Below are positions 23,518 to 33,489 of a stretch of 33,955 nt of DNA, one piece after another; positions within the stretch are counted from its first letter, which is position 1; each line of letters starts with the position of its first letter. The position numbers and the translations under genes are program-made. A model generated the notes under the pieces. The model searched no databases. It was not told the DNA's origin and saw only the letters and a list, made by a program, of their open reading frames with translations. Origin of the DNA: Microcaldota archaeon (GTDB lineage: Archaea; Micrarchaeota; Micrarchaeia; Anstonellales; Anstonellaceae); assembly GCA_026414185.1 (NCBI GenBank), contig JAOAJL010000009.1:3798-37752 (forward strand), given 5' to 3'.

Positions 23518-23571
23518 ATTTCCGCAATTTCCGCACTTTTTTCCTTGCGCGCCAGCCCGATTTGCCGAACA

Positions 23572-23580
23572 TTTTTAAAG
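23572..23580 (+). promoter_or_regulatory. TATA-like box of the L1-P0-P1 operon
   Basis: TTTTTAAAG, flanked by further A/T bases, lies about 85 nt before the L1 start. This gives a leader of about 55-60 nt that includes the hairpin at 23627-23649. Confidence 0.5.
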
Positions 23581-23626
23581 CTTTATCAGCTAATCCAACC
23601 CACAGCGGCTTTTGCCCGCCGTATCA

Positions 23627-23649
23627 CCATTCTCCCCTTGGGAAAATGG
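23627..23649 (+). promoter_or_regulatory. Leader hairpin overlapping the L1 ribosome binding site
   Basis: CCATT-C-TCCC / GGGA-A-AATGG form a 9-bp stem with one internal C/A mismatch and a CTT loop. The 3' strand runs directly into the Shine-Dalgarno GGGAGGG (23648-23654). Known: L1 represses its own mRNA in several archaea by binding an rRNA-like structure. Whether this hairpin is that site is inference. Confidence 0.4.
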
Positions 23650-23660
23650 GAGGGAGCAAG

Positions 23661-24314
23661 ATGGACAGAAAGCAGATAACGGAAGCGATACAGAAGGCTC
23701 TCCAGTCCAAAGGCTCGCGCAAATTCGTCCAGTCGCTTGAGTTCATAATCAATTTCAGGAATATTGACTTTACCAAGGCGGAAAACAGGCTGAACCTTGA
23801 CATCGTTCTTCCCAAGGGCAGGGGCAAAATCCCGCCAGTTGTGGTGTTTGCGGAGGGGCAGCTTGCCCTTGACGCGAAGAACGCCGGAGCAGACGAGGTG
23901 TTTGATTCCGCCGGCATAGCGAAGCTTGCCTCAGACCGCCAGCGCCTGGCTGCGCTTGCGAAGTCCGCGGAGTTCATCGCCCAGCCAAACCTCATGATTG
24001 CGGTCGGAAAGTCGCTTGGGCAGGTTTTGGGCTCAAAAGGCAAGCTCCCTCGCCCCATCGCGGGCACGAATGTGAAAGAGGCGATAGACCAGGCGCGCAG
24101 AAGGGTCCGCCTGCTCTCAAGAGGCAAATACCTGCCAGTTTCACAGTGCGTCATCGGCTCAGAGAATATGGAGATTTCTGACCTTGTGGAAAACTTTGAG
24201 GCGGTCTACGAGAAGGTGAAGGGAAAGGTGCTTGAGCCAAACATAAAATCAGTCTATGTGAAGCTTTCAATGGGCAAGCCAGTGAAGGTCGGAAGCACGC
24301 AGGCGGCAGGATAG
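23661..24314 (+). CDS. rpl1: Ribosomal protein uL1
   Basis: The 217-residue product has the family features FINFRNIDF-like strand EFIINFRNIDFTKAENRLNL, LPKGRGKIPPVVVFAEG, AQPNLMIAVGKSLGQVLGSKGKLPRPI (the L1 signature region) and IKSVYVKLSMGKPVKVG at the end. It binds the mobile L1 stalk of 23S rRNA and often its own mRNA. ATG 23661 follows GGGAGGG and matches the usual archaeal length; the frame is open further upstream to 23562 without support. The gene order L1-P0-P1 is the archaeal one, but the L11 gene that usually precedes it is not here. Confidence 0.97.
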   Translation: MDRKQITEAIQKALQSKGSRKFVQSLEFIINFRNIDFTKAENRLNLDIVLPKGRGKIPPVVVFAEGQLALDAKNAGADEVFDSAGIAKLASDRQRLAALAKSAEFIAQPNLMIAVGKSLGQVLGSKGKLPRPIAGTNVKEAIDQARRRVRLLSRGKYLPVSQCVIGSENMEISDLVENFEAVYEKVKGKVLEPNIKSVYVKLSMGKPVKVGSTQAAG

Positions 24315-24323
24315 GTGGCTTTG

Positions 24324-25274
24324 ATGACAAAAAGGAAATCCGGGGCAAAGGCTGGGGCAAAAGAGCGCCCAGCAATCCAGCTGAAAAAGAAAAGAGTGGA
24401 GGAGCTTGCGGCAGCTTCCAAAAAATACCCAGTCGTCGCCCTTCTGAACATACGCGCCCTGCCAGACAGGATACTCCAATCCGCAAAAAAGAAGCTTCGC
24501 GGAAAAGCCGAATTTGCAGTTGCCAAAAACAGCGTCATAAGCCGGGCTCTTGAGAAGGCGGGCAAAAGCGCGCTTGCGCAAAAGCTTGATTTCCCCACCG
24601 CCCTTGTCTTCACAAGCCTGACACCCTACGAGCTTTACAAATTCTTCAAACAAAACAAGGTGAAGGTTGCCGCAAAGCCGGGGCAGGTTGCGCCCTTTGA
24701 CATAGTGGTGCCGGAAGGGGAGACGGACCTGATGCCCGGACCTGCGCTCTCAGAGCTGAAAGGCGCCGGGATAAACGCGCAGATAAAGGGGGGCAAAATA
24801 GTAGTTGCAAAGGACTCGGTCGTCGCGAAAAAAGGCACAAAGATATCCGACACGGTCTGCAAGGCGCTTCAAAAGCTCGGTATAATGCCTTTTGAGGCGC
24901 AGGTTAACATGGTCGCCGCCTATGACGGCAAATTCCTCTACACCTCGGAAATTCTTGATATTGACGAGGCAAAGCTCATGGAAGGGCTTCTTGCCTGCCT
25001 GTCCGACGCGTTCAACCTCTCCTACAACTCCTCTTTCCCCACAAGCCAGAACATAGAGGCGCTTTTGTCTTTTGCCATTTCGCAGGCAAGGAGCCTGGCG
25101 ATAAACGGCGGGCTTTATTCCGATGCCTCCGCAGGCATCCTGCTTGCGCAGGCGGCGGCTCTTGGACAAGCCCTCTCGGGCAAGGTGGGCAGTTTAGATT
25201 CAAAGCCTGCAGATGCCGGTGCTTCTACGGCAGCTGCGGCTGAGCAGAAAACGGAGGAAAACAAAACGCAGTAA
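24324..25274 (+). CDS. rpl10: Ribosomal protein uL10 (archaeal P0 stalk protein)
   Basis: The 316-residue P0 has the rRNA-binding N-terminal domain (KKYPVVALLNIRALPDRILQ ... KNSVISRALEKAG), the inserted domain with PGQVAPFDIVVPEGETDLMPGP, and helical spines that carry P1 dimers (DEAKLMEGLLACLSDAFNLS). The C-terminal end is Ala/Glu/Lys-rich and stops ...TEENKTQ, without the hydrophobic GxxLFG-type tail that archaeal P0 and P1 normally share and that contacts elongation factors. GGTGG with a 5-nt spacer fixes ATG 24324, just after the L1 stop. No frameshift restoring a tail is evident before the P1 gene. Confidence 0.96.
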   Translation: MTKRKSGAKAGAKERPAIQLKKKRVEELAAASKKYPVVALLNIRALPDRILQSAKKKLRGKAEFAVAKNSVISRALEKAGKSALAQKLDFPTALVFTSLTPYELYKFFKQNKVKVAAKPGQVAPFDIVVPEGETDLMPGPALSELKGAGINAQIKGGKIVVAKDSVVAKKGTKISDTVCKALQKLGIMPFEAQVNMVAAYDGKFLYTSEILDIDEAKLMEGLLACLSDAFNLSYNSSFPTSQNIEALLSFAISQARSLAINGGLYSDASAGILLAQAAALGQALSGKVGSLDSKPADAGASTAAAAEQKTEENKTQ

Positions 25275-27360: not shown

Positions 27361-29154
27361 CTACTCCGGCTTGTAAAGCACAGAGTTGCCGTCGTTATCA
27401 ACAGCAAGCGAAAGAGGCTTTTCAAATGAGTAAAGGATAGTGTTCTTCCCCTCTTTCCTTCCGCTTGCAAAAGCCTGCGCTTTCCCCAGGTCAATCTCGG
27501 CGCCCTCCCTTATGTGCGCAAAAGTCACTCCAGCGCTCCTGAATGCCTGATAATCGTGTATCGCCCCGCTCTTCTCTATGCTCCCAAGCTGCTCAACTAT
27601 GAGCCGCGCGTTGCTTGCCGTTTCAAACCGCCCTGGCACGCCGAGGGTGCTGTCTTTGGTGCACCACCTTCCCTGCGTCACAAGCACGTAGGCTGCCCTC
27701 TGCCCCAGCTGTGAAAGCTTCCTGTTGAGCCCATCTATTTCGCTTGCGATTTCATATGTTTTTCCAGCGGCAAAAGACTCGGGCTTGACGTAAAGCAGGT
27801 GGTAAAGCCCGCTTTGGCATCCGCCCTCAGTCTGCCAGAACCTTGCCAGCACGCAACTTTCATCCAGCTGCGGAAGCGCATCAAGAAGCCGCTCCCTGCT
27901 TCGCGGTATGGGCCTGACTTGAAGCGCGTAAAAAAGCCAGCAGTCGCGCCCGTCCCAGATTCCCCTGTCCGCCGCACCCTCAAACTCTATCTCCATGCCG
28001 TAATAATTCCGCAGAACCTCCATCACGCTGCGGAGGGTTTCAAGAAAGACGGAATTTTTTGGCTTGAGCAAATCCATAAAAATCATGACTGGCGAGGACG
28101 GCTCGCGCCTGTATTCCGTTATCCTGCCGTCATGGAGATAGACGCAGTGCGGCGCGTAGACTTCCGGCTGACCGTGGTCTTGCAGGTATATCTTGGAAAG
28201 GAACTCATCGCCTTTTTTCGGCACGCTCTCGTTTTGCGGGGAGAGCGGCAACACATACATCTTGTTGGGTCCGCTTCTTTTCAGCTGTTCGGCGTCGTAA
28301 ATTGGCACGGGCCAGGGCTTTCCGAGATTGAAGCTGAAGCTAAAGCCGCGCTCGCCTTCCACCGTGCCCGGACCAAGCCCCGCGCACATGGTTACGCAGC
28401 CATCCTCGGGTCTCTCGCCGCGGTGCCGCATCGCCTCTTCGTCCTTTGAAAGCCCGGCAAAGGCAAGGAGGGGATGGTAAAGCGTCTCCCCCTTCTGCTT
28501 TGCCTGCCAGTTCCTGCCAGCGACGTTCATCACCAGGCACGCCATTGCCTCCTGCGTTTTCAGCCCCATCATCCTGCGGTATTTTTTCACCTTCTCAAAG
28601 TAGGTGCTGGCATAAACAAGCTTGAGCGCCGCTTCAAACTGCGCAAGCCGCACCTGCATGCTGGGATGGCAATTCGGCAGGAAGACCGTAAGGTACATGC
28701 CGGCGAAATTGTACCTCTCGGCATCCTCGTTGAGCGCAGAGGAGCGCAGGGCGATAGGGCGCGTGTGGTGCGCAAGTATCCTCCTGAAAATCTCCCTCTG
28801 CTCCTCGGAAAACTTGCCCTCCATGAATTTTCCCGCAAGCTCATCATCGCTTATGGACAGGTGCGCCCAAGACGTCAGCCCGTTTTCCTTCATGAACTTC
28901 TCAAAAACGCTGATGCCGATGACGGTTGCCTTGGGGCAGGCAAAAAGCACGCTGTCGCCCAGCCTTTCGTGCAGAAGGCTCGTGTTTTCCAGAAGTGCGC
29001 TTCTGAATCGCATGAGGTTTTCCGCTTTTCCACCTATCGCATCAAGCCCGTCAGGATAAACCTTCATATTCGGCAAGCGGACCTTCGTCCCGCTGGCGTG
29101 CATCTTGGAGAAATAATCCTCAAACCTCGCGCTTTTCACAGGCAAAATCCGCAT
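27361..29154 (-). CDS. PEP synthase/PPDK-like ATP-grasp domain protein without the phosphohistidine domain
   Basis: The 597-residue product carries the PPDK N-terminal nucleotide-binding fold: DAIGGKAENLMRF (about 38-50), the phosphate-contact motif IALRSSALNEDAERYNFAG (R137), and AALKLVYASTYFEKVKKYRR. The later part has LQVRPIPRSRERL, the strand that closes the ATP-grasp domain. The central swivelling His domain (TxHAAIxxR signature) and the PEP-binding barrel of true PEP synthase are absent, so it is not a full gluconeogenic enzyme. Similar truncated forms occur beside response-regulator-like genes, as here (divergent partner at 29248). An ATG at 29184 lies inside the TATA box, so ATG 29154 was chosen. 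It may phosphorylate a partner protein or small molecule (inference). Confidence 0.82.
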   Translation of the reverse strand: MRILPVKSARFEDYFSKMHASGTKVRLPNMKVYPDGLDAIGGKAENLMRFRSALLENTSLLHERLGDSVLFACPKATVIGISVFEKFMKENGLTSWAHLSISDDELAGKFMEGKFSEEQREIFRRILAHHTRPIALRSSALNEDAERYNFAGMYLTVFLPNCHPSMQVRLAQFEAALKLVYASTYFEKVKKYRRMMGLKTQEAMACLVMNVAGRNWQAKQKGETLYHPLLAFAGLSKDEEAMRHRGERPEDGCVTMCAGLGPGTVEGERGFSFSFNLGKPWPVPIYDAEQLKRSGPNKMYVLPLSPQNESVPKKGDEFLSKIYLQDHGQPEVYAPHCVYLHDGRITEYRREPSSPVMIFMDLLKPKNSVFLETLRSVMEVLRNYYGMEIEFEGAADRGIWDGRDCWLFYALQVRPIPRSRERLLDALPQLDESCVLARFWQTEGGCQSGLYHLLYVKPESFAAGKTYEIASEIDGLNRKLSQLGQRAAYVLVTQGRWCTKDSTLGVPGRFETASNARLIVEQLGSIEKSGAIHDYQAFRSAGVTFAHIREGAEIDLGKAQAFASGRKEGKNTILYSFEKPLSLAVDNDGNSVLYKPE

Positions 29155-29182
29155 CAAATCAGGCAAAAATATAATAGTGGGC

Positions 29183-29191
29183 ATATATAAT
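29183..29191. promoter_or_regulatory. Shared bidirectional TATA region
   Basis: ATATATAAT can serve as a TATA box in both directions: minus strand towards ATG 29154 (about 33 nt) and plus strand towards ATG 29248 with a leader of about 35 nt. A second AT-rich element (29166-29176, TATTATATTTTTG on the minus strand) may also take part. The gap between the two genes is only 93 nt. Confidence 0.55.
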
Positions 29192-29193
29192 CT

Positions 29194-29226
29194 TTTGTGT
29201 CAAAAATCCTTTGTGTCAAAATATCC
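29194..29226 (+). repeat. Tandem operator-like repeat in the divergent promoter
   Basis: TTTGTGTCAAAA occurs at 29194-29205 and again at 29210-29221, a 16-bp period, each copy followed by ATCC or TATCC. Each copy is also an inverted repeat, (T)TTTG-TGT-CAAA(A). The array covers the predicted plus-strand transcription start and lies just upstream of the minus-strand TATA box, where a bound repressor could act on both genes. Confidence 0.55.
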
Positions 29227-29247
29227 TCGCTTTTGAGGGATGAGCGC

Positions 29248-30381
29248 ATGCCCCACTTTCCGCTGGTGAAGAACACCAAGAAGACAGACAGGATAATAGT
29301 GGTAGGCACGCAGGCGGAGATAGACTGCACAAAAGACTGGCTGAAAAGATGCAAAGCCCAAATTCAAGTAGAAGGCGTATGCACTTTCAGCGGCGGCAGG
29401 CAGCTTAGCAGGCAAGAAGGGGAATACGGGCTGAAAAAGAGGCTGGAAAAGGCAACCTCATCCTCGCTTATAATAAGCGACATAGGCGAGGGGCGCGACT
29501 ACAAAATAGAGCATATCGCGCAGGATGCAAAGGAGGTCTCCGACGCCAAGGTGGGTGTGCTGACGAGCAACCGCAGCTTCACCGGAGAGGCGATTGTGCG
29601 CAACCTATTTGTAGAGCAGCGCGGCTTTGACCCCGCCATCCTTGAAAAGATGGACTACATATTCAACTACCACACGGGAGATGGCAGGGTTTTCTGGAAG
29701 CTCATTGAGCTTCATGAAAACACGCTCAATATGGACAAGGGCAAGTCAATCCTCGTGGTTGAGGACAGGCCAGAGTACTACACCAATTTCCTGATTGACC
29801 TTGACAGAATAATAGAGAAGCGCAGCCGCATTCTTGTTGCCCGCACCTATGAGCAGGCAAAAAGCCTGATTTCCCGCCTTAAAAACAGGCTGCTTGGAGC
29901 CATCGTGGATGTCCATTTCCCGAAGAAGAGCAAGGTTGAGTCCGACTCGCACTGGGAGATTTACTACATGATAAAGGGGCAGGATTCAAAGGTGCCAATA
30001 ATCTTCCAGTCAGCGGATGCGAAAATAATAAGGTCGCTCAAAAGCGACAAGCGCGCCTTTTCCCTCTGGAAAGAAGACCCCTCATTTTTCTCCAACCTGG
30101 CGGCGACCATCAACGATTATTTCGGCTTTGGCGACTTTGTCTTTGTCAATCCGGCAGATTTCCAGCAGGTCCGCCGAGCCTCAAGCCTCACGCAACTTGT
30201 GGAGGGCATAACGAAAGTAGAAGACGTTTCAATCCTGTATCATGCTTCCAACAACCACTTCTCCAACTGGCTCCATCTGCATGGCTACTCAGAGGCGGCG
30301 TCAAAAATAAAGCCAATCTCCTCTCCTGACGCAGACTTTGTGCGGGCTGAGCTTCTGCGCATACTCAAGCCCTACCTCTGA
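29248..30381 (+). CDS. Double receiver-like signalling protein paired with the PEP-synthase-like gene
   Basis: The 377-residue product has two receiver-like folds. The first (about 14-140: RIIVVGTQAEI ... LIISDIG with D78) is poorly conserved. The second (about 166-300: SILVVEDRPEYY with E172/D173, GAIVDVHFP with D221, then VPIIFQSADAK) retains the acidic pocket and the acceptor Asp. The C-terminal part (about 310-377) has a conserved-looking NHFSNWLHLHGYSEAA. There is no DNA-binding motif. ATG 29248 follows GAGGGATGA; a TTG at 29197 is unlikely. Known: receiver proteins with this HFS-W-L ending occur beside PPDK-like genes in some bacteria, so the pair may be laterally acquired. The 3' end overlaps the convergent Maf gene by 17 nt. 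Confidence 0.75.
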   Translation: MPHFPLVKNTKKTDRIIVVGTQAEIDCTKDWLKRCKAQIQVEGVCTFSGGRQLSRQEGEYGLKKRLEKATSSSLIISDIGEGRDYKIEHIAQDAKEVSDAKVGVLTSNRSFTGEAIVRNLFVEQRGFDPAILEKMDYIFNYHTGDGRVFWKLIELHENTLNMDKGKSILVVEDRPEYYTNFLIDLDRIIEKRSRILVARTYEQAKSLISRLKNRLLGAIVDVHFPKKSKVESDSHWEIYYMIKGQDSKVPIIFQSADAKIIRSLKSDKRAFSLWKEDPSFFSNLAATINDYFGFGDFVFVNPADFQQVRRASSLTQLVEGITKVEDVSILYHASNNHFSNWLHLHGYSEAASKIKPISSPDADFVRAELLRILKPYL

Positions 30382-30919
30382 GCACTGCCCGCAGCCTCCT
30401 GAGCGGCAAGCCAATCACGGTTTCCCTCTCTCCCCTCACTGAAGCAACCAGTGCCGCCCCCTTCCCAGAGATGTCATAGCATCCTGCCCTTCCCTTCCAC
30501 TCTCCGCTTCTAAGATAGGCTAAAAGCTCCCCGTCAGAAAAATTTCGCATCCGCACCTTTGCCCTTTCGCCATACTTGACGCGCCTGCCATCCGGGAAAA
30601 GCACGCAGACGCCCGTTAGGACACAGTGCGTCTTGCCCCGCAGAAAAGACAGAACCCGCCTTGCCGCCCTCTCATTATCCGTCTTGCGGAAATTCCTCTT
30701 TCCAAGATAGGCGATAGTGTCAGCCCCAACCACGATGCTTTTGCCGTCCGCTACTGCCAAGGCTTTCTTCTCAGCAAGGCGCACGCAGGCTTCGGCAAAG
30801 CTCTCCTTGGGCAGAACCCTCTCGCCAATCTCCGCAGGCTTAACCCGGAAGCTGCGCACCAGCCTTCTAAGCAGGCTCTTCCTTCTTGGAGAGGCAGAAG
30901 CAAGCACAAGCCCCATCAT
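30365..30919 (-). CDS. maf: Maf-family nucleoside triphosphate pyrophosphatase
   Basis: The 184-residue product shows the Maf start LVLASASPRRKSLL, then VVGADTIAYLGKRNFRKTDNERAARRVLSFLRGKTHCVLTGV (the catalytic Asp and the Lys/Thr region), and the C-terminal AGCYDISGKGAALVASVRGERETVIGLPL. Maf enzymes hydrolyse non-canonical or modified NTPs to NMP plus pyrophosphate. The typical Ala-Tyr-Gly is Cys-Tyr here (GCYDISG), a small variation. A TATA-like stretch 26 nt upstream of ATG 30919 predicts a leaderless start; ATG 30916 is equally possible in frame. The 3' end overlaps the receiver-like gene. Confidence 0.92.
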   Translation of the reverse strand: MMGLVLASASPRRKSLLRRLVRSFRVKPAEIGERVLPKESFAEACVRLAEKKALAVADGKSIVVGADTIAYLGKRNFRKTDNERAARRVLSFLRGKTHCVLTGVCVLFPDGRRVKYGERAKVRMRNFSDGELLAYLRSGEWKGRAGCYDISGKGAALVASVRGERETVIGLPLRRLRAVLRGRA

Positions 30920-31056: not shown

Positions 31057-31128
31057 ATGCCATCCGCCTGTGTGATTGGCAACTTGCACGGGCGCCGGAA
31101 AAAAGAAAAAATATTGTGAGGTGTGAAT

Positions 31129-31413
31129 ATGGAGTATAAAAGAAGAGATGTTGTAAAAAATGGGACTGATAGAAAAAAGAGAGAAATGCCGGTCAAGACT
31201 TTCTTTGACCTGTACTACCCGAAAGACAAGATACCGACTGCCAAGGTGCCGGTTTCAAACGCAGAAGGCAAAACAAACAGCAGCCGTCCCGACGTGGGGG
31301 CATTTGACTGCCACGGCTTTCCGCTTCCAAAAAAGGAAAAGGAATCCCAAAAGAAACCCTCTGAGATTGCGTTTGACTGCCACGGCTTCCCCTTGCCTCT
31401 CACAGACAGGTGA
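31129..31413 (+). CDS. 94-residue protein with a duplicated AFDCHGFPLP motif
   Basis: The N-terminal half (1-40) is basic and includes MPVKTFFDLYYPKDKIP. The C-terminal half carries the decapeptide AFDCHGFPLP twice, at 58-67 and 81-90, separated by a Lys/Ser-rich spacer. Five of the ten codons differ silently between the copies (all of the four FPLP codons among them), so the peptide rather than the DNA is being conserved. Each copy has one Cys and one His. No signal peptide or membrane helix is present. GGTGT sits just before ATG 31129. I do not know the family. Possibilities are a metal-binding motif, a docking tag recognised by a partner, or a multi-core peptide precursor. Confidence 0.75.
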   Translation: MEYKRRDVVKNGTDRKKREMPVKTFFDLYYPKDKIPTAKVPVSNAEGKTNSSRPDVGAFDCHGFPLPKKEKESQKKPSEIAFDCHGFPLPLTDR

Positions 31414-31467: not shown

Positions 31468-31480
31468 TTATTTAAATACT
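31468..31480 (+). promoter_or_regulatory. TATA-like box for the amidase gene
   Basis: TTATTTAAATACT lies about 55 nt before ATG 31529, giving a leader of about 30 nt that ends in the strong GAGGAGGGG ribosome binding site. Confidence 0.55.
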
Positions 31481-31528
31481 TCCTAACACTTCTTTATCCG
31501 CTTCTGAAGTAAGAAGAGGAGGGGAATT

Positions 31529-32461
31529 ATGTCAAAGAGCAGCTTGCCGCTTGTATTTTTGGATGCTGGCCACGGGGGCAAAGACCCGGGCGCAATTGGC
31601 AATGGCTACAAGGAAGCGAGCCTGAACCGAGCCATTGCAAAACGCCTTCTTGAGAAGCTGTGCGATGAAAAAAGGGTGCGAGCAATTCTCACCCATCAAG
31701 CCGCCGGCAAGGACATAAATGAAACCTGGGCTGCGCGCGACCGCGCCGCTTTCCTGCGCGACTACAACAGCAGCAAGGAGAAGATTGACTATGTGCTCTC
31801 AATACACCTCAATTCCTCAACCTCTCAGTCTGCCTCTGGCTTGGTAGTTTGCCACAACAGCCGCGAGAAGGAAGCCTGGATGATGTATAATACAATGACA
31901 GAGCTTGCCCGGAAAGAAGGCTTTAACATCGAAGGCAACCGCGTGGAGAAGATACAGGACAGACCAGACCTTGCCATCCTCCGCGCATCACTACTTAAAC
32001 TTTTTGAGAAAAACGGCTTGAAGATAGGCGACAAGAAAGAGTTTGAAGATTACTTCAAGAAAGCCACCGATAATTTCAAGGGCGGCATTGCTGACTCTCT
32101 GGACAAAGTTATTGCCGACCGCGTTTCCATTCTGATGGCTACCATACGCGATGAAAGAAGCGCAAACAAGCCCTCCGCCGCATCTGAAAAGAAGACGGAG
32201 TCTCTTGAAAAGGAGATGGAGTCTCTTCGCAAAAAGGAGTGCGCGATACTTACAGGGATTGAGCCCCTTGTCAAGCCATACGAAAAATATTCCGTTCTCT
32301 GCGTAGAAAATCCACAGGAAGGCAAGGACTTGCGGATTCCCGCGCTTCTGGTTGAAACCGGCTTTATCAGCAACAAGGAGGATGCAAACAGGATTGCCAA
32401 GTACCCAAAGAACTACGCTGTCTGGATGGGCGAGGGGTTATATAAAATATTGCAAATCTAA
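31529..32461 (+). CDS. Zinc N-acetylmuramoyl-L-alanine amidase (Amidase_3 family)
   Basis: The 310-residue product has the complete Amidase_3 set: LDAGHGGKDPGAIG (H15), the Zn-binding Glu in KEASLN (E29), SIHLNSS (H93) and the catalytic Glu in LLVETGFISN (E276). The family cleaves the bond between MurNAc and the peptide stem in bacterial peptidoglycan. Between H93 and E276 sits a long helical, charged insertion (about 105-255, with ESLEKEMESLRKKE), as in autoinhibited bacterial amidases. There is no signal peptide or wall-binding domain, so export is unexplained. Archaea lack murein, so it probably came from a bacterium or phage and may attack bacteria or serve another amide substrate. GAGGAGGGG precedes ATG 31529. 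Confidence 0.9.
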   Translation: MSKSSLPLVFLDAGHGGKDPGAIGNGYKEASLNRAIAKRLLEKLCDEKRVRAILTHQAAGKDINETWAARDRAAFLRDYNSSKEKIDYVLSIHLNSSTSQSASGLVVCHNSREKEAWMMYNTMTELARKEGFNIEGNRVEKIQDRPDLAILRASLLKLFEKNGLKIGDKKEFEDYFKKATDNFKGGIADSLDKVIADRVSILMATIRDERSANKPSAASEKKTESLEKEMESLRKKECAILTGIEPLVKPYEKYSVLCVENPQEGKDLRIPALLVETGFISNKEDANRIAKYPKNYAVWMGEGLYKILQI

Positions 32462-32535
32462 AATGGAGATAGTAAAGCTAATAATCAATTGGAAATAATA
32501 ATATTGATTTAGAAAATGAGAGGCGGTTGAAAAAA

Positions 32536-33489
32536 ATGAAACTCTCTTCCAAAAAAGCAGTTATCTGCGCAACCCAGCCTCTATTTGAAAAAAGCCTAAA
32601 GCAGAAGTTTTTTCTTATTCCCCTTGTTGAGCCACTGACATCAAAGGACCTTATCTCCAGATATTTTGACGAGAAAATCGCCCCATCTTGCGTTCTTGAG
32701 ATAAGAAAAGCCATTCAGGAGGAACTTGGCGAGAATGCTTTTGTGAAGTGGAAGTATCTTGGCATATCCGCACGCCTAAGCCCAAGCGAAGAAATTGAAA
32801 AATTGAAATCCATTATGCATTGTGTGAAGAAAAAGACTGAACAGAAGCTGGACTATGTCTCCAAGAGAATTCCTCTTATTTCAAAAAAAATAAAAAATCG
32901 GGACGAGAGGCTGCAGAACCTCAACAAACGCATCTCTGATCAGAATACGCCTGAGCCCACAAAAAGAAAAATAGCCTGGCAGATTTCAAAAAACAAAAAA
33001 ATTCACGAGCAGCACCTGTGGAACCTCAACAAATGCATTTCCGAGCAGAAGGAGCTTGAGCTCAAAAAAGAAAAGATAAGCCGGCTTCTTATTCGCGTGG
33101 AGAGCATCATCTCCTCTTTCCAAAAAGACAAAAATGAAGAAATAATAAAAAGCGCCACAGAGAACTTTCACAAGGAAGGGGAGCTTTTGGCTTTCATCCG
33201 CCTATCAGAAAGCAAGGACCTTCCTCCGAACAACATAAGGATTACCACAAACCTGGATTCAACGCGGGATATCACGCTGGAAGAAATCCGGGAGGCGCTT
33301 TCAGCTTCAGTTCAAAAAAGCGGCCACTCGGTTTCCTTCGCCTTTTTTCCATCTGAGCAGAAATCTCCATTTTTTGAGCTCCAGTCGTCACAACCAATAT
33401 TATTATTCGCTTCGCTTGACGGGATAGTTGATATAATGACGAATATCTCCTATGTCAAGAACATCAATTATGTTTTCCATTCCGAGTAA
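32536..33489 (+). CDS. 317-residue coiled-coil protein of unknown function
   Basis: Residues about 85-200 are a Lys/Glu-rich coiled coil with an internal repeat: ERLQNLNKRISDQ (about 124-136) and QHLWNLNKCISEQ (about 159-171), 35 residues or five heptads apart. The flanking parts look globular (N-terminal VICATQPLFEKSLKQKFFLI; C-terminal strands SFAFFPSE and PILLFASLDGIVDIM). It is richer in A+T and Lys/Ile than most genes here, which may indicate recent acquisition. ATG 32536 follows GGTTGA at 5 nt; TTG 32527 is an alternative. It follows the amidase by 74 nt on the same strand, with an AATCAAT/ATTGATT inverted repeat (32483-32509) in between. No family is recognised. Confidence 0.72.
   Translation: MKLSSKKAVICATQPLFEKSLKQKFFLIPLVEPLTSKDLISRYFDEKIAPSCVLEIRKAIQEELGENAFVKWKYLGISARLSPSEEIEKLKSIMHCVKKKTEQKLDYVSKRIPLISKKIKNRDERLQNLNKRISDQNTPEPTKRKIAWQISKNKKIHEQHLWNLNKCISEQKELELKKEKISRLLIRVESIISSFQKDKNEEIIKSATENFHKEGELLAFIRLSESKDLPPNNIRITTNLDSTRDITLEEIREALSASVQKSGHSVSFAFFPSEQKSPFFELQSSQPILLFASLDGIVDIMTNISYVKNINYVFHSE

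Follow-up and report, generated by a model that had tools for sequence, protein, structure and literature searches.

It is already established that some archaea produce peptidoglycan hydrolases with which bacteria are killed (PMC12352652). The survey that collected them admitted only modular proteins comprising a catalytic and a wall-binding domain; plasmids and small contigs are over-represented as locations of the resulting set, and 32% of its members feature a signal peptide (Strock 2025; PMC12352652). Pacearchaeota and Woesearchaeota have been described as encoding large lytic-transglycosylase-like proteins (PMC8204110), and the existence of predatory Woesearchaeota has been put forward (PMC9723730). 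We found no paper in the literature searched that combines Micrarchaeota with N-acetylmuramoyl-L-alanine amidase. Here we describe a gene from a Micrarchaeota (DPANN) genome whose product resembles Woldo and Danwoldo of Halogranum (PMC12352652), in that a bacterial wall-cutting domain is found in a murein-less archaeon and is patchily distributed. Unlike that set, it possesses neither a binding domain nor a signal peptide, and its gene is chromosomal and syntenic with ribosomal genes. Archaeal peptidoglycan hydrolases are thus known; what is new is a single-domain, signal-less, syntenic DPANN amidase, together with relatives whose active site is dead. A chromosomally fixed protein of this kind would escape a survey that filters on wall-binding domains.

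The window, i.e. the whole stretch of 33,955 nucleotides analysed, corresponds to C34:3798-37752 of the host genome (G000; 960 kb in 35 contigs, 87% complete, 0.5% contamination), and its end is also the contig end, 1.5 kb past the amidase gene. The gene and the codons of its predicted active site are listed below.

31529..32461, + strand: open reading frame of an Amidase_3 protein of 310 aa (P0001), a probable zinc N-acetylmuramoyl-L-alanine amidase by PF01520 and fold match
31571..31573, + strand: codon of H15, predicted zinc ligand, in the motif DAGHGGKDPGA (alignment and sequence)
31613..31615, + strand: codon of E29, predicted zinc ligand (alignment and sequence)
31805..31807, + strand: codon of H93, predicted zinc ligand, in the motif SIHLN (alignment); G instead in three relatives
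32354..32356, + strand: codon of E276, predicted catalytic Glu, in the motif PALLVETGFISN (alignment); three relatives have L, K or R here

P0001 matches PF01520.23 (Amidase_3) with 90.5 bits (E 1.7e-25), against a Pfam cut-off of 27, and a profile search identified no other PF01520 match in the host genome. The residues H15, E29, H93 and E276 are invariant across a 58-sequence alignment comprising P0001, one archaeal ortholog and 56 bacterial and phage amidases, such that both the His-Glu-His zinc ligands and the Glu near the C-terminus are present; N95 accompanies H93. When structurally modeled with AlphaFold2, the core of P0001 reaches a pLDDT of 90-98 and is predicted to adopt the amidase α/β fold. 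A Foldseek search with this model matched 33 chains of the PDB at E<=0.001, every one of them a peptidoglycan amidase; 5emi (TMt 0.83, E 1.2e-10), 1jwq (0.83) and 4rn7 (0.83) are among them. P0001 shares its fold, zinc ligands and catalytic Glu with the Amidase_3 amidases AmiC2 of Nostoc (5emi), CwlV (1jwq), the C. difficile protein (4rn7) and CwlD, as well as motifs of the NR/DRG..VLR and PAxLVExGFISN types, and differs from them in its archaeal host, the lack of an export signal, and a new loop position that is occupied by a long helical insert. Its scores lie far below the NCBIfam cut-offs for the equivalogs AmiB (48.5 vs 532), AmiA (39.3 vs 400) and AmiC (37.3 vs 700), and for CwlD (TIGR02883; 60.3 vs 221.55). 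A hydropathy scan found neither a hydrophobic N-terminus nor a transmembrane stretch (the top 17-residue Kyte-Doolittle mean is 1.0, at residue 190), and Pfam detects Amidase_3 alone, with no second domain, wall-binding or AMIN included. These data bear out the preliminary description of the gene, which had assigned it to Amidase_3 on the same four residues and had noted the absence of a signal peptide and a wall-binding domain.

The same description proposed that a long helical insertion might be an autoinhibitory arm.

31988..32332, + strand: lineage-specific insert, residues ~154-268 (~115 aa), predicted to be mostly helical, separating the VLR strand from the PALLVE strand

The insertion is real: in the bacterial and phage alignment rows displayed, VLRxT directly precedes MPAxLVE, whereas ~115 residues intervene in P0001. 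The longer bacterial rows of the alignment feature long inserts too, placed before DRG..VLR. AlphaFold2 predicts helices across residues 155-242 with modest confidence (block pLDDT ~53-83) and disorder across residues 241-266, and the insert is variable within the micrarchaeal family, being absent from the G014 and G006 homologs. AmiA, AmiB and AmiC resemble P0001 in their Amidase_3 core and in possessing an insertion located after the third zinc ligand and before the catalytic Glu. However, the regulatory domain of AmiA comprises residues 151-194, with blocking and interaction helices, ahead of helix 5 (PMC10268282), whereas the insert of P0001 follows the VLR strand, and P0001 has no AMIN hit. 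The two occupy different loops and are therefore not positionally homologous, and on these grounds we reject an arm of the AmiB type. Gating of the active site by the predicted insert is nevertheless possible.

The gene lies 1.5 kb from a contig end, where bacterial contamination or a chimeric join might place a foreign gene, and the right flank in the host assembly extends no further than that end; we therefore relied on synteny in other genomes. The contig itself carries an archaeal lysyl-tRNA synthetase, an archaeal-type L10 and an rpL1-like gene, and also encodes pilin-like proteins and an archaellum/pilus-type ATPase. The features relevant to this comparison are as follows.

23562..25274, + strand: genes of archaeal ribosomal proteins L1 and L10, which anchor the synteny (archaeal-type L10 models)
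27361..29184, - strand: PPDK_N-like protein (PF01326, E 7.1e-19), a syntenic neighbour that adjoins Maf in G009 and G007
30365..30919, - strand: Maf nucleotide pyrophosphatase (PF02545, E 9.7e-46), which marks the conserved amidase neighbourhood
31471..31478, + strand: archaeal TATA box-like TTTAAATA, an exact match to the consensus, 58 bases upstream of the amidase ATG
31516..31524, + strand: Shine-Dalgarno-like GAGGAGGGG, from the sequence

The order rpL1-rpL10 is conserved in six genomes (G007, G014, G001, G005, G006 and G016), and Maf is found near the amidase or a degenerate homolog in five genomes besides the host (G009, G007, G014, G006 and G001). In G007, which is 100% complete, a 40%-identical ortholog is positioned mid-contig on a 249-kb contig, immediately preceded by rpL1-rpL10-P1 and a 65-aa marker gene. 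Genes of the receiver, PPDK-like, Maf and photolyase kinds lie <=9 kb from it, so that the gene set of the window recurs there in a different order. The ortholog of G009 (32% identity) sits between Maf/PPDK-like genes and the 65-aa marker, and the homolog of G014, from the sister genus, is separated from Maf by 7.4 kb and from rpL10 by 10 kb. The orthologs to be sought among DPANN archaea were thus found in genomes of the same genus (G007 and G009), with their neighbourhood conserved. Moreover, the codon usage of the amidase gene (distance 0.099) falls inside the range of the contig (0.063-0.148 for other genes), and the motif TTTAAATA is also found 60 bases upstream of the L10e/L16 ribosomal gene, counted from its listed start, both occurrences being matches to a consensus and not proof of a promoter. 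Because of the syntenic orthologs in other genomes, the local codon usage and the archaeal TATA box, we reject contamination or a chimera at the contig end; the suspicion that this end might be bacterial is contradicted by the conserved archaeal synteny of the orthologs.

Just 5' of the amidase, a 96-aa ORF (31123-31413, +) contains the motif AFDCHGFPLP twice (31303 and 31372); every other locus compared is devoid of it. The stretch 27361-30381 of the window comprises a divergent pair, the PPDK_N-like protein and a receiver-like protein with a weak C-terminal DUF5752 match; the pair is also divergent in G007, and both proteins are fast-evolving (34-36% identity). On the 3' side of the amidase, an orphan of 320 aa (32527-33489, +) features a coiled-coil-like middle and a lower G+C (41%). 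It has no match in 19 related genomes, and was rejected as a co-evolving partner, since it bears no significant similarity to the relatives' genes at the same place.

The phylogeny of the amidase addresses its origin. In a tree of 105 sequences, four micrarchaeal proteins group together (SH-aLRT 99) at the end of a stem whose length is 1.73 substitutions per site, and in a smaller sequence set three micrarchaeal proteins likewise form one clade (100/100). This clade nests in no sampled bacterial or viral group, contrary to what recent contamination would produce. A recently captured phage endolysin, one form of the phage derivation that had been envisaged, finds some encouragement in the viral contigs that are the nearest rows by path outside the micrarchaeal family, and in the PHROG endolysin families 435, 489 and 2742 that match P0001. 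Phage endolysins of this Amidase_3 type resemble P0001 in their catalytic domain and lack of a signal peptide; P0001 differs from them in having no binding domain, in its archaeal housekeeping neighbours, and in its separate clade. The best match to P0001 in a phage record is only ~30% identical, none covers 80% of P0001, and a tree holding the micrarchaeal family together with all viral rows is rejected, if borderline (p-AU 0.047). With no phage genes nearby, a clade of its own on a long stem, orthologs in the same archaeal neighbourhood (one of them inside a 249-kb contig), an archaeal promoter motif and native codon usage, we reject a recent phage capture; it and contamination taken together are extremely improbable. 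The long stem, separate clade and low phage identity instead indicate that the acquisition was old. We conclude from these comparisons that the amidase appears to have been acquired anciently and then inherited vertically in one Micrarchaeota genus, with a relative in the sister genus.

Across the phylum, PF01520 is present in 11 of 301 genomes, and several genomes are without the amidase. Carriers outside the micrarchaeal family of P0001 mostly possess other architectures, and one shared origin with these other Micrarchaeota amidases is neither supported nor rejected by the trees (p-AU 0.27). Two of them are multi-domain wall-degrading proteins (L011 and L012, from G299 and G277), with the architectures M23+NlpC/P60+Amidase_3 (790 aa shown) and M23+Amidase_3+SLT (892 aa shown, on a 204-kb contig). 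Two others (L013 and L014, from G038 and G067), from another family of the order, are cysteine-rich Amidase_3 proteins with N-terminal signal-like stretches. A further signal-less, single-domain Amidase_3 of 231 aa (L016; G030:C5:20463-21080), also from another family of the order, has apparently kept its zinc residues and lies on a very long branch.

Within the family of P0001, three of six members lack the catalytic residues while keeping the scaffold: one from the sister genus (G014) and two from the same genus (G006 and G001). The homolog in G006 (L205:1283-1987, -) is near Maf and divergently oriented from it, as in the window, and that in G001 (L209:6776-7558, +) is 2.4 kb from Maf. Pfam detects Amidase_3 weakly in both, and their scores against a family profile are 28.9 (G006) and 27.8 bits (G001), where 0 of 6232 reversed ORFs score at all; a profile-profile comparison (hhalign) of this degenerate pair gives a probability of 94% (E 8.9e-8). 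In G006, G001 and G014, H93 has become G and E276 has become K, R or L; H15 is missing too from G006 and G001. By contrast, G104-L105, G136-N137-R138, G278, N282 and D285 are kept in 6/6 members, with F replaced by Y in the G278 context of G006. The genomes with degenerate copies, of which G001 and G006 are 55% and 80% complete, respectively, yielded no intact PF01520 protein at another place. A tree of Maf+L1+L10 does not separate genomes with intact copies from those with dead ones, which implies either more than one loss of the site or descent of the dead copies from an old paralog. Conversely, G000, G007 and G009 keep every catalytic residue although their proteins are 32-40% identical, which suggests that this branch is under selection for catalysis. 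Given the loss of the active site in relatives and the absence of the gene from several genomes, hydrolysis is not the constant function of the family, and the amidase appears dispensable in the lineage.

One interpretation of these data, which we offer tentatively and consider rather doubtful, is that an amidase-fold family of one Micrarchaeota lineage, originally a murein hydrolase, has more than once, near a fixed locus, given rise to proteins that lack the active site and serve a new role, the working enzyme being kept by sister species. If true, this would constitute an ongoing transition from enzyme to pseudoenzyme in archaea showing no murein of their own. The intact and dead copies in one neighbourhood provide a natural series for the protein's role once murein hydrolysis is unselected. 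A related possibility, doubtful but the main rival to an enzyme acting on murein, is that the family has been recruited away from the wall, to serve in the cytosol as a scaffold or binder of amidase fold; its catalytic site would then be a relic that only some species have retained. The scaffold positions invariant in all six members despite the substitutions at H93 and E276, the homology of the degenerate pair (28-29 bits, hhalign 94%, position near Maf) and the missing export signal of P0001 are consistent with such a role. However, a pure relic would not keep every catalytic residue in three members at 32-40% identity, and the very long branches of the degenerate copies fit decay too.

For the protein of this species, we place roughly even confidence in the proposal that it is an ancient zinc amidase of bacterial type, most likely still acting on murein or its fragments. 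Zinc would be held by H15, E29 and H93, with E276 as the catalytic Glu, and P0001 would cut the amide bond between MurNAc and L-alanine in bacterial peptidoglycan or fragments thereof; access of the substrate is probably shaped or gated by the lineage-specific insert, which adjoins the strand of the catalytic Glu. The family, the intact site, the fold, the archaeal residence, the synteny, the old origin and the loss of the site in relatives are observed here, and catalysis, the murein substrate and the bacterial target are inferred. The substrate is expected to be foreign. No Mur-ligase-type protein beyond FolC was found in the host genome, where the sole Mur_ligase_M match is FolC, its gene sitting in a folD/purN-like cluster, and no M23 peptidase was found there either; to this extent the description of the host as a lineage without murein holds, and we reject murein synthesis by the host. 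Since the host shows no such synthesis, a working enzyme needs murein from elsewhere. It would come from bacteria, through the killing of neighbours or the uptake of wall material, as a dispensable accessory trait. Having no export signal, P0001 might reach this substrate by lysis, vesicles, contact or non-classical export.

A weapon against bacteria is a possible role of the amidase, as had been suggested at the outset, and it raises the question of whether Micrarchaeota interact with bacteria besides their archaeal hosts. Antibacterial or predatory use is complicated by the dead site in 3/6 members, the lack of an export signal, and the lack of an injection-sheath gene: no phage-sheath gene of a contractile injection system was found in the 87%-complete host genome. 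Feeding is a rather unlikely alternative, in which a cytosolic scavenger cleaves imported muropeptides for peptides and amino sugars, such that the protein serves nutrition and not attack. P0001 does look cytosolic, and the trait is dispensable and patchy, but the gene is surrounded by Maf, PPDK-like, photolyase and ribosomal genes, and neither an importer nor a gene for muropeptide use is linked to it. Moreover, known cytosolic recycling relies on other families; the recycling enzyme AmpD is an Amidase_2.

The host may also possess a second protein active on wall-like glycans. A large secreted lipoprotein of 734 aa (G000:C32:47297-49495; L221:10-2214) features the lipobox LLLLSGC and a C-terminal SLT/lysozyme-like motif (RAIISQESQFD..YGLAQ, conserved in G002 and G007), with an SLT-like score under the Pfam cut-off. 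Its homologs are found in 76/84 genomes of the order, including 27/28 high-quality ones, which makes it a near-universal envelope protein. Such a distribution suggests that these cells may handle a wall-like glycan, either their own or their host's, and could be taken to mean that the amidase remodels an unrecognised polymer in the archaeon's own envelope. We regard this as very unlikely, as the amidase is patchy (11/301 genomes of the phylum), unlike a core envelope function, and FolC is the only protein of Mur-ligase type found. The 734-aa lipoprotein is itself a possible candidate for a second wall-active enzyme of the host.
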